Shown here piece after piece: positions 45,384-62,102 of a stretch of DNA of 64,000 nt. The position numbers and the translations under genes are program-made. Under the pieces are notes generated by a model that saw nothing but the letters and a program-made list of their open reading frames with translations, made no database searches and was not told where the DNA came from. Position 1 is the stretch's first letter; each line of letters starts with the position of its first letter. The stretch lies in contig JAIEQJ010000073.1 in the NCBI GenBank assembly GCA_019747815.1, positions 1 to 64,000 on the forward strand. The letters are read 5' to 3'. The DNA comes from Hyphomonadaceae bacterium. Its GTDB lineage: Bacteria > Pseudomonadota > Alphaproteobacteria > Rhizobiales > Hyphomicrobiaceae.

Positions 45384-46442
45384 ATGCAGCACGCTTGCTA
45401 CAGTGTCACCGCGCACAATCACCCTCTGGAGCGCAGAGAGGTGCCGACACCCGAGCCCAAGGGCGCGGAGGTCTTGATCCGAACGACAGGGGCCGGGGTC
45501 TGCCACAGCGACATTCATATCTGGGAAGGCGTCTATGATCTCGGCGCCGGCAACACGCTGACGCTCAAGGATCGAGGCGTCACCTTGCCCCTGACCATGG
45601 GGCACGAGATCGCCGGCGAGGTCGTCAAGGCGGGTCCCGAGGCCAAGATCAAGGCGGGAGCCAGTTGCGTGGTCTATCCCTGGCTCGGCTGCGGTGAATG
45701 TGCCACCTGCAAGCGCGGCGAGGAGAATCTCTGCACCGTCAAGGCGCGGTCCATCGGCGTGTTCCAGCCGGGCGGGTATGCCGAGTACGTCCTCGTTCCC
45801 CACGAGCGCTATTGTGTCGATCTCGGCACGCTCGATCCGGCGCAGGCGGCGCCGTTGGCCTGCTCGGGCGTCACCACCTACTCGGCGCTCAAGAAGCTCG
45901 GCCCCAGGATCAAGGACCAGCCCGTCGTCATCATGGGCGGCGGCGGCCTCGGCCATATGGCCCTCACCGTGCTGCGCGCCATGCAGGGCAAGGGCGCCAT
46001 CGTCGTCGACATCGATGCCGAGAAGCGCAAGGCGGCCCTGGAGGCGGGCGCGCTCGCCGCCATCGATGGTGCGGCCACCGACGCAAGCAAGCAGATCATC
46101 GAGGCGACAGGTGGCGGCGCAGCCAGCGTGCTCGATCTCGTCGGCGCCTCGGCCACCGTGGGTCTAGGGATCGCCAGCCTGAAGAAGGGCGGGGAGATCG
46201 TGGTGGTCGGCCTCTACGGTGGCGAGCTGAAGCTGCCGCTCGTCTATCTTCCCCTGCGCGCCATGGGGCTGCGCGGCTCGTATGTGGGCAGTCTGCCCGA
46301 GCTCAAGGAACTCGTGGCCCTGGCGCAGGCGGGATCGCTCAAGCCCGTGAAGGTCACGCGCCGCAAGCTCAGCGAAGCCAACCAGGCCCTGTCCGACCTG
46401 AAGGCCGGCAAGGTGGTGGGACGCGTCGTGCTGGTGCCCTAG
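45384..46442 (+). CDS. zinc-dependent alcohol dehydrogenase
   Basis: MQHACYSVTAHNHPLERREVPTPEPKGAEVLIRTTGAGVCHSDIHIWEG; GHEIAGEV; CGECATCKRGEENLC; VVIMGGGGLGHMAL. Stop codon TAG lies in the CTAG of the adjacent repeat. Confidence 0.94.
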   Translation: MQHACYSVTAHNHPLERREVPTPEPKGAEVLIRTTGAGVCHSDIHIWEGVYDLGAGNTLTLKDRGVTLPLTMGHEIAGEVVKAGPEAKIKAGASCVVYPWLGCGECATCKRGEENLCTVKARSIGVFQPGGYAEYVLVPHERYCVDLGTLDPAQAAPLACSGVTTYSALKKLGPRIKDQPVVIMGGGGLGHMALTVLRAMQGKGAIVVDIDAEKRKAALEAGALAAIDGAATDASKQIIEATGGGAASVLDLVGASATVGLGIASLKKGGEIVVVGLYGGELKLPLVYLPLRAMGLRGSYVGSLPELKELVALAQAGSLKPVKVTRRKLSEANQALSDLKAGKVVGRVVLVP

Positions 46443-46603
46443 TGTGATGATCGAGAAATTCGCCCTTCCTCGCAGCACGCCTGTTGAGCGAATTTCTCGA
46501 TCTGAATCACACTAGAACCATGAGCTTGCTAGTGTCCTTTCGATCGCGAAGTTCGTTCAGCGCCGGCTGCGAGATCCGGCGAACTTCGCGATCGGGACAC
46601 TAG
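46439..46603. repeat. 165-bp twin-hairpin CTAG-bounded element, copy 1
   Basis: CTAGTGTGATGATCGAGAAATTCGC...GCGAATTTCTCGATCTGAATCACACTAG + 13-nt spacer + CTAGTGTCCTTTCGATCGCGAAGTTCG...CGAACTTCGCGATCGGGACACTAG; same length as 60738-60902 with 5 substitutions. Confidence 0.95.
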
Positions 46604-46635
46604 GACCTTGCGATGGTGGCAGCTTCAGCCCAGGT

Positions 46636-46775
46636 GTCATCCCGGATGGCAACAGGCCGATCCGGGAGCCAGGGGCCCAGAGCCAAGAGCCAGAGCTAAG
46701 AGCACCAGCAGAGCACCAGTCTCGCGCCTGTGGCCTCTGGGTCCCGGCTCTGCGCTGCGCTCCGGCCGGGATGAC
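46636..46775. repeat. GTCATCCCGG-type dispersed palindromic repeat at a convergent junction
   Basis: GTCATCCCGGATGG...CTGGGTCCCGGCTC...GGCCGGGATGAC between ADH(+) and TetR(-). Confidence 0.6.
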
Positions 46776-58694: not shown

Positions 58695-60101
58695 TTACGG
58701 CCCGATCCTGAGGCTGGCCGCCTCCAAGGCGGCGTTCAACGGCTGGCGCGGCTCCATCTGCGCCGACCGCGCTGCAGTGCGGCGCTCCTGCAGCCAGTTT
58801 GGAAACCACATGGCGATCGACGGGAAGATGAGAACCAGCACCACGCAGATGACCTGGATGACCATGAAGTCCGCCATGCCGCGGTAGATGAGCTTCAGGT
58901 TCCACTCCTTGACCACCTGCTTCAGGTAGTAGGCCGACATCGCCACCGGCGGAGACAGAAATGCGGTCTGCAGAACCACGGCCACGATGCAGCCGAACCA
59001 CACCATGTCGTAGCCCAAGCCCTTGGCCACGGGCGCCAGCAGCGGCAGGAAGATGAGCACGATCGCCGGCCATTCGAACGGCCAGCCGAGCAGGAAGATG
59101 AGCAGCAGCAGAAGTGTCATCGTGCCCCAGGCCGGCAGCGGGGCCGCCAGCAGCGTGTTGGTGATCCAGCTCGCCGTTCCGAGCCACGCGAACACGGCGC
59201 CGAACACGTTCGAGGCGACGGCGAGGAACAGCACCATGCTGGTGGTCGCAAGCGTCAGATTGCAGGCATTGAAGAAGCCCTTCCAGGTGAACTTGCCGTA
59301 GGCGATGACCAGCAGGATGGCCCCGAGCGCGCCGAGTGCTGCTGCCTCGGCCGCGGTCGTCAGGCCGGCGAGAATGGCGCCGAGCGTGACGATGGTCAGC
59401 ACCGTCACGGGCACCAGGCCGACCAGGCATTCCCACAGCACGATCCCCAGCGACTCCGGCCGCTCCTCCTTCGGCACCGGCGGCCCGAGCTTCGGATTGA
59501 GGAAGCTGCGGCCCATGGTGTAGGCGATGTACATGGCCGATAGCAGGAAGCCGGGCCCGAACGCGGCTGCGTACAAATCGATCACCGAGATGTCGAGAAC
59601 CGGCGCCATCACCACCAGCATGACCGAAGGCGGAATGAGGATGCCGAGCGTCCCGCCGGCGGCAATGGCGCCCGCAGACATGCGCACGTCGTAGCCGGAG
59701 CGGATCATCATGGGGCCGGCCATGATGCCGAGCAGCGCCACCGTGGCCCCAACCGTGCCGGCGGCGATGCCGAACAGCGTCGCCGTTGCGATGACGACCA
59801 TGTACAGCGCGCCGCGCACGGGCGCGAACAGGTCGCGGAACGCCTTGAACAGGCGCTCCATCAAGCCGCCCTGGTCGCACACGTAGCCCATCAGGATGAA
59901 CATGGGCACGGCGACGAACTCATCCTGCTTCATGAGGCCGAACGTCTGCAGGTAGGTGAGGTTGAAAACCCTGACGCCGAGGCCCATGAAGCCGAAGATC
60001 AGCGCCAGGAACAGCAGGGTGAAGCTGATCGGCAGGCCGATGAAGATCGCCCCCAGCATCACCAGCAGCATCACCATTCCGAGCAGCTCAAGGCCGGTCA
60101 T
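58695..60101 (-). CDS. dctM: TRAP transporter large permease (DctM)
   Basis: MTGLELLGMVMLLVMLGAIFIGLPISFTLLFLALIFGFMGLG; AGAIAAGGTLGILIPPSVMLVV; start ATG 60101. Confidence 0.93.
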   Translation of the reverse strand: MTGLELLGMVMLLVMLGAIFIGLPISFTLLFLALIFGFMGLGVRVFNLTYLQTFGLMKQDEFVAVPMFILMGYVCDQGGLMERLFKAFRDLFAPVRGALYMVVIATATLFGIAAGTVGATVALLGIMAGPMMIRSGYDVRMSAGAIAAGGTLGILIPPSVMLVVMAPVLDISVIDLYAAAFGPGFLLSAMYIAYTMGRSFLNPKLGPPVPKEERPESLGIVLWECLVGLVPVTVLTIVTLGAILAGLTTAAEAAALGALGAILLVIAYGKFTWKGFFNACNLTLATTSMVLFLAVASNVFGAVFAWLGTASWITNTLLAAPLPAWGTMTLLLLLIFLLGWPFEWPAIVLIFLPLLAPVAKGLGYDMVWFGCIVAVVLQTAFLSPPVAMSAYYLKQVVKEWNLKLIYRGMADFMVIQVICVVLVLIFPSIAMWFPNWLQERRTAARSAQMEPRQPLNAALEAASLRIGP

Positions 60102-60712
60102 ACGTCGATCTTTTCCCTGTGCTCGAACTCGCGCCCGAAGCGGATCTGGTAGAGGCACTTGAGCGCCTCGGAGATGCCTTGGATCATGAACAGCAGCGCC
60201 GCGAGGGGGATCGAAGCGCGGAACGGCCACATGATCGCCCGCCACACGCTCTCCTGGGAGCGCTCGCGGATGGAGTAGGAGAGCCAGGCGTCGTCGATGC
60301 TGATCGCCATCAAGGTGATCATCGCCGGGAAGAACAGGACGAGATAGGAGAAGAGATCGATGATCCCTTTCTTGCGCTCCGAGTAGTTGTCCCAGAAGAT
60401 GTCGGTGCGCACGTGCGCGCCTTTCAGCAGGGCGTAGGCGCACCCCAGCATGAAGGCGGCGCCGTTCACCATGTAGCTCGACTCGTACACCCACACGGTC
60501 GGCGCGTTGAACAGATAGCGCGCGCACACCTCGTAGGTGATCATGCCGACGAGCAGCGCCATCCCCAGCGCGATCAATTGGCCGGTGAGGTCGGAAAAGC
60601 GGTCGATCCAGCGGATGGCGGCATAGAAGGCCGGCGGGAAGTCGCGACTTGCGCCGTCTGCGCGCGACGCTCGGGTGTCTGCCGGCATCGGTCCTCCCCT
60701 CGGCCCACTCAT
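60098..60712 (-). CDS. dctQ: TRAP transporter small permease (DctQ)
   Basis: 4-TM; VGMITYEVCARYLFNAPTVWVYESSYMVNGAAFMLGCAYALLKGAHVRTDIFWDNYSERKKGIIDLFSYL. Confidence 0.9.
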   Translation of the reverse strand: MSGPRGGPMPADTRASRADGASRDFPPAFYAAIRWIDRFSDLTGQLIALGMALLVGMITYEVCARYLFNAPTVWVYESSYMVNGAAFMLGCAYALLKGAHVRTDIFWDNYSERKKGIIDLFSYLVLFFPAMITLMAISIDDAWLSYSIRERSQESVWRAIMWPFRASIPLAALLFMIQGISEALKCLYQIRFGREFEHREKIDV

Positions 60713-60737: not shown

Positions 60738-60902
60738 CTAGTGTGATGATCGAGAAATTCGCCCTTCCTCGCAGCACGCCTGCTGAGCGAATTTCTCGAT
60801 CTGAATCACACTAGCACCATGAGCTTGCTTGTGTCCTTTCGATCGCGAAGTTCGTTCAGCGCCTGCTGCAAGATCCGGCGAACTTCGCGATCGGGACACT
60901 AG
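60738..60902. repeat. 165-bp twin-hairpin CTAG-bounded element, copy 2
   Basis: Ungapped alignment to 46439-46603 with 5 substitutions by eye; located between dctP and dctQ. Confidence 0.95.
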
Positions 60903-60977
60903 AAGAAAGCGCCGGGTTGCGGCGGATGCCGCCATCCGGCATCCGCCGCGCATCGAAATTGGGTCTGCTCCGCCAGC

Positions 60978-62102
60978 CTATTTGCTGCGGTAGACCTTGT
61001 CCTTCCAGTAGTAGTTGCCGGCGAACTCATACGGCGGGAACCAGGAGAGCCGGAATGGCACCACCTGCTCCGCATACTTCTTCTGGCTGTCCATCACCTT
61101 CTTGTAGAAGGCATCCTTCGCCGCGTAGTCGGCCTGGATCTTCTCCCATTCGTTGAGGAAGTTGATCAGCACCTCGTCCGGGGTCCGGTGAATTTGCACC
61201 CCCTCCTTGAGGAGCTCCTGGCAGGCGTCGGCCGTTTCGCGATTGAAGGCGAAGTTGCGCATCGTCGTGGCGTAGACGGACGCCACCTTGACGATCTCCT
61301 GCAGGTCGGGAGCGAGCTTCTTCCAGACGTCGGCATTGATCATGAGCTGCCCGCCCGTCACCGGCTCGTGCATGCCCGGCGTATAGTAGTGCTTGGCGAT
61401 CTTGTGCAGTCCGAGCTTCCTGTCCTCCAGGCAGTTGATCCACTCCGCGCCCTCGATCACGCCGCGCTCCAGGGCCGGCACGATCTCGCCGCCGGGGATG
61501 GTCACCACCGCAACGCCGAGCTTGCCGTAGGTCTCCGCGCCGATGCCGTAGATGCGGTACTTCATGCCCTTGAGGTCGGCCAGGCTCTTGATCTCCTTCT
61601 TGAACCAGCCGAGCCCCTGCGGGTAGTCGGTGGGAATCGGGAAGCCGACGACGTTGAGCTTGATGATGTCGCGGTAGAACTCCTCGAGCAGCTTCATGCC
61701 GCCGCCGTCGTAGTACCAGGCGTAGTAGTCCTGTCCGTCCATGCCGAACAGCGGCCCGTGCGACATGGGGATGGTGGCCGTGTGCCGGCCCTGGATGTAG
61801 CCGAAGGGCGCCATGCCGACGTCGAGCACGCCCTTGGACGTGGCATCGAACACCTCGAAGGCCGGAACGATGGCGCCGGCGGGCAGGGTCTCGACCTTCA
61901 GGCGGCCGCCCGACATCTTCTCGACCGTCTCGGCCCAGACCTTGAAAATGAGATGCAGGTTGGCCGACGCGGGGTGCGAGGACTGCCCTTTGAGGACCAG
62001 CTTGGTGGTCTGCGACACGGCCGGCCCTTGCGGAGCCAGCACGACACCTGCCGCCGCCAGGGCAAGCAGGAAGGCCGATACGGCCAATGCGCGTCTGAAC
62101 AT
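60978..62102 (-). CDS. dctP: TRAP transporter substrate-binding protein (DctP)
   Basis: MFRRALAVSAFLLALAAAGVVLAPQGPAVSQTTKLVLKGQSSHPASANLHLIFKVWAETVEKMSGGRLKVETLPAGAIVPAFEVFDATSKGVLDVG. Confidence 0.93.
   Translation of the reverse strand: MFRRALAVSAFLLALAAAGVVLAPQGPAVSQTTKLVLKGQSSHPASANLHLIFKVWAETVEKMSGGRLKVETLPAGAIVPAFEVFDATSKGVLDVGMAPFGYIQGRHTATIPMSHGPLFGMDGQDYYAWYYDGGGMKLLEEFYRDIIKLNVVGFPIPTDYPQGLGWFKKEIKSLADLKGMKYRIYGIGAETYGKLGVAVVTIPGGEIVPALERGVIEGAEWINCLEDRKLGLHKIAKHYYTPGMHEPVTGGQLMINADVWKKLAPDLQEIVKVASVYATTMRNFAFNRETADACQELLKEGVQIHRTPDEVLINFLNEWEKIQADYAAKDAFYKKVMDSQKKYAEQVVPFRLSWFPPYEFAGNYYWKDKVYRSK

Follow-up and report, generated by a model that had tools for sequence, protein, structure and literature searches.

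A CTAG-inserted twin-palindrome element with IS630-type ends, probably a non-autonomous MITE, across an alphaproteobacterial order

Introduction

MITEs derived from IS630/Tc1-mariner transposons include RUP of the pneumococcus and the Correia elements. These resemble the element described here in being non-coding, short and mostly intergenic, but the present element has two bulged palindromes, a conserved 13-nt spacer and CTAG-bounded modules, and it differs further in that its arms covary across the order and its old copies keep their palindromes. The Rhizobium intergenic mosaic elements (RIME) and bacterial interspersed mosaic elements are alphaproteobacterial and, like the element, combine two large palindromes with a mosaic joining of modules; they differ from it in length and probably in sequence.

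Insertion by IS630 transposases takes place at TA, which becomes duplicated (PMC2170065), and IS630/Tc1-mariner transposons such as ISY100 (PMC2170065) offer a likeness in that a resident IS630 has similar ends and the TA target lies inside CTAG. MITEPsy1 of Pseudomonas syringae (PMC3189936) is also a small MITE with a duplicated CTAG (or YTAA) target, but it measures 100 nt, has ends like those of ISPsy2 (possibly listed as IS5), and is not described as having twin palindromes. REP/REPIN sequences and their RAYT partners (PMC3116915, PMC3733652) share with the element two inverted palindromes around a spacer, a high copy number and a mostly extragenic position. REPs, however, are palindromes of 20-40 bp tagged with GTAG/CGTC, whereas the hairpins here are 75-77 nt and lack a free tag, many hosts of the element are without a Y1 transposase, and the target duplication is at CTAG.

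The element was found in a window of 64,000 nucleotides (positions 1 to 64,000 of contig JAIEQJ010000073.1, assembly GCA_019747815.1, Hyphomonadaceae bacterium), where a sequence-only reading had described a duplicated twin-hairpin unit that it could not assign to any named family. That assessment agrees with the absence of a match in Rfam, the literature or the sequence collections searched, and no description of the element was found in the literature on IS630-CTAG MITEs, Hyphomicrobiales repeats or the end sequence. An order-wide family of IS630-type MITEs whose twin-palindrome design is kept after insertion is considered real and apparently undescribed.

Results

The two copies in the window occupy, to the base, the positions first given for them (46439-46603 and 60738-60902, each 165 nt), and most of the early description of their architecture was accurate. 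Arms estimated at about 24-25 bp consist of 10 + 15 bp in hairpin 1 and 9 + 15 bp in hairpin 2, the single 3-nt bulge lies on the right arm of hairpin 1 (TGA) and on the left arm of hairpin 2 (TTT), and the predicted 13-nt spacer spans element positions 78-90. The five substitutions counted by eye between the copies fall at element positions 46, 78, 93, 127 and 133, four of them in loops or spacer, where most had been placed, and one in a CTAG. The description of CTAG at every hairpin border applies to copy 1 but fails for copy 2, in which hairpin 2 begins with CTTG. The features of the two loci are as follows.

45384-46442, plus strand: zinc alcohol dehydrogenase gene ending on the left CTAG of copy 1 (start codon inferred)
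46440-46442, plus strand: TAG stop of the alcohol dehydrogenase gene, within the left CTAG
46439-46603, plus strand: twin-palindrome MITE copy 1, CTAG-H1-CTAG-spacer-CTAG-H2-CTAG (181.9 bits, family covariance model)
46439-46442, plus strand: left CTAG of copy 1, the target site (second CTAG at 46600-46603)
46439-46515, plus strand: hairpin 1 (H1) of copy 1, element positions 1-77
46439-46463, plus strand: outer (left) arm of hairpin 1, the left terminal inverted repeat
46488-46515, plus strand: inner arm of hairpin 1, with the bulge TGA at 46503-46505
46516-46528, plus strand: 13-nt spacer AACCATGAGCTTG of copy 1, conserved in sequence across the order
46529-46603, plus strand: hairpin 2 (H2) of copy 1, element positions 91-165, with the bulge TTT of its inner (left) arm at 46538-46540
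46580-46603, plus strand: outer arm of hairpin 2, the right terminal inverted repeat
60738-60902, plus strand: twin-palindrome MITE copy 2 (H1 60738-60814, spacer 60815-60827, H2 60828-60902)
60098-60712, minus strand: DctQ gene, one flank of the intergenic copy 2
60978-62102, minus strand: TRAP-type substrate-binding gene, named by eye, the other flank of copy 2

The bulged arm of each hairpin is the one next to the spacer, and the outer arm is without a bulge. All 49 pairs of the consensus of genome-wide copies are canonical, which together with the number of copies puts the element well beyond chance, and the 165-nt element, which lacks coding capacity, matches its own reverse complement from end to end at about 70%. 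The spacer has a consensus near AATCATAGACTTG and is recognisable across the order in either orientation. Elsewhere in the window, an IS481-like transposase remnant (HTH_32, LZ_Tnp_IS481) lies at 41738-42292, an inverted repeat of two perfectly matched 13-bp arms around a 5-nt loop stands just past copy 2 (60919-60949), and a dispersed repeat of about 150 bp adjoins copy 1 (46611-46775, equivalent to L001:1673-1837; also present at L003, L004, L008 and L183), its pieces being 79-94% identical across several loci.

Searches of the source genome (G000; 5.4 Mb, 111 contigs), whose closest relatives by protein are metagenome bins of Hyphomicrobiales and Hyphomicrobiaceae, returned 40 scored copies at 96-100% identity by blastn and about 66 full-length places by covariance model, along with fragments, many of which lie at contig ends. 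The flanks of these copies are unrelated to one another, and the genome-wide search that the sequence-only reading had proposed extends the family to about 66 dispersed copies, beyond a two-copy duplication. Short, non-coding, bounded by terminal inverted repeats and present in many dispersed copies, the element has the attributes of a MITE.

The element is also modular. Within the source genome there are copies without H2 (L151, L153, L154) or without H1 (L156), solo hairpins of H1 or H2 alone (L152, L215; L157, L158), copies with a doubled spacer (L165, L166, L169, L217) and 74-nt hairpins in which neither arm has a bulge (L211-L214). Another CTAG-bounded repeat, about 150 bp long and itself with two palindromes (CTAGAGCAGGATCGCTTCGG...GATCGCGCTCTAG; L011:1354-1504, L188, L168, L153, L162), abuts the twin-palindrome element in several places with one CTAG common to both. 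A further repeated module ending in GTCGATTCAGC stands directly before the CTAG of the element (L156, L157, L214, L215), which suggests a mosaic of CTAG-bounded modules. The CTAGAGC... repeat beside the element may be nearer to the RIME group.

CTAG is present at both ends of nearly all copies. The sequence-only reading had pointed to target-site duplication and empty sites as a check, and one clean case was found at the end of an alcohol dehydrogenase gene in a Hyphomicrobiales bin (L042), where the orthologous site holds a single CTAG and no element (...GTCCCCTAGGCC / ...GTGCTGGTCCCCTAGGCC); the occupied site in the window reads CTGGTGCCCTAG[element]CTAGGACC. CTAG is palindromic around TA, so that with CTAG on both sides of the element a duplication of TA and a duplication of CTAG look identical. 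Tandem copies that have one CTAG in common occur as element arrays in G064 and as IS arrays in the source genome; at L195 (G064:C70), about three tandem copies are joined, neighbour to neighbour, at one CTAG.

An amber stop codon is the exact site of 26 of the 60 non-edge copies in the source genome, the copy at 46439 among them, and the reading frame is preserved. For comparison, 206 CTAG sites elsewhere (464 kb) comprise 33 amber stops, 101 intergenic sites and 72 sites in ORFs. The excess at amber stops (26/60 vs 33/206; Fisher p = 3e-5, or p = 0.003 against non-ORF sites only) depends on the simple codon-usage gene caller from which the amber and ORF classes were taken, and over other intergenic CTAGs it is moderate. 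Only 5 of the 60 copies lie inside ORFs, against 72 of the 206 CTAGs elsewhere (Fisher p = 4e-5), an avoidance that can reflect selection after insertion. On Roseibium plasmids, the RefSeq annotation has an SDR oxidoreductase CDS ending on the first CTAG of the element.

A pattern scan with the end motif led to contig C84 of the source genome, which carries two tandem 1172-bp IS units encoding a 377-aa transposase of IS630 type (PF13358 DDE_3 + HTH_29 + HTH_32), with the ends CTAGTGTCCTGATTCCGAAGTTTTCC and CTAGTGTCCTGATCGATAAATTTCCC. The outer arms of the element are identical to these ends at 20-21 of 25-26 positions, and the H2 arm from a relative at 23 of 26, where CTAG-anchored background matches to the arms peak at 11-12 with a single best of 18. 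Nine further IS630 relatives, from the host family and one other, have CTAGTG or CTAGTA ends at CTAG. Genome G005 encodes a transposase 70% identical to that of C84 and holds copies at separate sites with no more than one differing position between them, as in a burst; their H1 arms are nearest to the IS end of G005 itself (22/25), and their H2 arm fits the source-genome IS as well as their own. Outside these two genomes the match between arms and resident IS ends is weak (e.g., G374), and no close IS630 (E <= 1e-15) was found in 17 of 20 element-rich genomes, including the complete G013 and G245. Two nearly identical copies at different sites occur in G245, where no close IS630 is present. 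The absence of the IS from element-rich genomes is read as IS loss or as a second agent.

In the host family, 56 of the 104 genomes and 20 of the 26 genera carry the element, and it extends to about 16 further families of the order; the copies read measure 160-172 nt. Named carriers include Martelella, Ochrobactrum, Rhizobium, Aminobacter, Agrobacterium (partial) and Roseibium, and the median pairwise identity among 50 copies from across the order is 62%. A plasmid search with the window copy itself gave no match, and two order-wide variants matched named records. Outside the order, a Sphingopyxis plasmid (L400, NZ_CP009430.1) carries one 75-nt hairpin on its own, of the Roseibium type and 3 bases past a gene end.

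Covariation, which the sequence-only reading had named as a check on the stems, is extensive, with changes on both sides of 35 of the 49 pairs in 36 order-wide sequences. Two-sided changes in this set amount to 286 cells, compared with 73.6 when shuffled and with maxima of 16 pairs and 35 cells when slid; among 14 sequences of the host family, 15 of 49 pairs show them versus 0-3 when slid. These counts are far beyond the controls. Pairing is kept in 97.8% of cells, a percentage that leans towards the structure because the structure was derived from the same 36 sequences, and outside one column G-U makes up about 1% of cells, in contrast to typical RNA families. In the young burst of the source genome the stem changes are uncompensated (0 compensated vs 51 broken).

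An exhaustive scan of the complete genome G013 gave about 34 copies (33 full-length), few of them decayed, with a median identity of 74%. Its type A copies (n = 25) depart from their consensus at 6.4% of paired and 25.8% of unpaired positions and include 49 compensated pairs against 6.7 when permuted. Insertions common to species were recognised by matching flanks on both sides. Across six of these, differences number 3 of 548 at paired and 21 of 448 at unpaired positions (p = 2.6e-5), or 5 versus 19 (p = 7e-4) under a conservative correction in which two positions broken in one species are counted as stem, so that change affects 0.5-0.9% of stem sites and about 4-5% of unpaired positions. One of the six falls between genes identified by eye as nuoL and nuoM, and four sister species lack it; their empty sites read CTAA or CTGA instead of CTAG. 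Three candidate common insertions (L197/L144, L317/L149, L301/L341) were left out, as their alignments represent separate nearby insertions or unrelated sequence.

Discussion

The reading preferred here, to which we attach a probability of roughly 70%, is that of a non-autonomous MITE with IS630/Tc1-mariner-type ends, inserted at CTAG across the order, with palindromes that are constrained in the older insertions. The suspicion of a mobile element in the sequence-only reading is borne out by the approximately 66 dispersed, mostly near-identical copies, the single-CTAG empty site and the IS630-type ends; the element is mobile, or was recently, and the family has gone through a recent burst in the source genome. 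Mobility and target are well supported, and from the resemblance of the ends an IS630 transposase is the likely mobilising agent.

In the mechanism that follows from this reading, the outer arms would be the terminal inverted repeats (CTAG followed by TGTSNNGATC...) of a CTAG-targeting IS630/Tc1-mariner-type transposon, and the IS-encoded transposase would excise the element and insert it at the TA within another CTAG, leaving CTAG on both sides. Each hairpin comprises one end sequence and, after it, an imperfect copy of that sequence in inverted orientation. The 3-nt insertion between tip and body of the inner copies would shift the phase of the tip and make the transposase favour the outer ends; the inner-arm bulge may in this way keep the transposase off the inner ends. 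CTAG is scarce in genes but contains the amber TAG, and the positions of the copies show that insertions often fall on stop codons, with the stop recreated and the frame intact. Comparison of older lineages points to single insertions that are inherited, their palindromes apparently kept by matched changes in the two arms as the loops drift.

Several alternatives bear on how the copies arose and why their arms stay complementary. Duplication of one locus within the window, suggested by two near-identical copies only 14 kb apart, can be set aside with near certainty as a simple account given about 66 copies with unrelated flanks. Spread of a REP/REPIN-like element on single-stranded hairpins by a Y1 HUH (RAYT-type) transposase is very unlikely: the two inverted bulged palindromes, the high copy number, the mostly extragenic position and a structure conserved more than sequence all recall that system, but here the tetranucleotide at the ends forms part of the paired stem and occurs on both sides, in contrast to the GTAG tag of REPs, which is free, and the empty site shows that CTAG is duplicated. 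Additionally, a PF01797 search of the source genome and 40 related genomes, with positive controls in E. coli and Caulobacter, left most carriers without a hit, among them the source genome and G004, G005, G010, G012, G013, G018, G019, G020 and G023. Complementarity without selection, through template switching between the arms during replication (quasi-palindrome correction) in a decaying MITE, has somewhat more in its favour and is still improbable. Variants of the source genome in which H1 is inverted or both arms are of one kind (L190, L191, L159, L213, L214) are what such switching would give, and even the CTAG that derives from the target changes together with its inner partner (CCAG..CTGG, CGAG..CTCG). 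Template switching alone, however, should barely lower the change at paired sites, which is 4-fold lower in G013 and 5-9-fold lower in the insertions common to species, and the bulge, which it should remove, is retained throughout the order. Template-switch correction may contribute.

The question of what maintains the palindromes also involves the level at which they act. Host-selected RNA structures (a terminator, attenuator or mRNA-stabilising hairpin), with mobility secondary, are doubtful as the main explanation. The stems are conserved locus by locus and many copies sit at 3' ends or between co-oriented genes, the nuoL/nuoM site included, yet compensation is almost all Watson-Crick with the G-U share already noted, one-sided changes on the gene strand are 11 GT vs 7 AC (p = 0.48), the element is oriented 10 vs 8 relative to its flanking genes, and Rfam covariance models gave only a chance-level match, outside the element. 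A terminator is further opposed by the lack of a T run after the hairpins and by the small number of convergent gene pairs in G013 (2). The near absence of G-U pairs and the lack of strand bias weigh against the RNA-processing unit offered by the sequence-only reading. Its other suggestion, of a selected element, is in keeping with the covarying stems and the slow stem change in common insertions; the palindromes appear to be constrained after insertion, probably as DNA, since the one-sided changes are without strand bias. A low mutation rate in palindromes and exchange between copies are less likely alternatives. More tentatively, hosts might have adopted these order-wide, transposon-derived units on stop codons as DNA-level twin palindromes, the bulged repeats and 13-nt spacer being selected across species at individual loci for a job of the DNA itself, such as binding a dimeric or cruciform-reading protein.

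As a rule, MITE families have a narrow distribution and their copies decay once inserted; here an architecture of 160-172 nt persists across many families. CTAG targeting also illustrates how a mobile element can enter a dense genome at little cost, through insertion on amber stops that are thereby restored. With this family one can test whether small transposons turn into permanent parts of the chromosome, and whether the selection that keeps them acts at the level of DNA or RNA.
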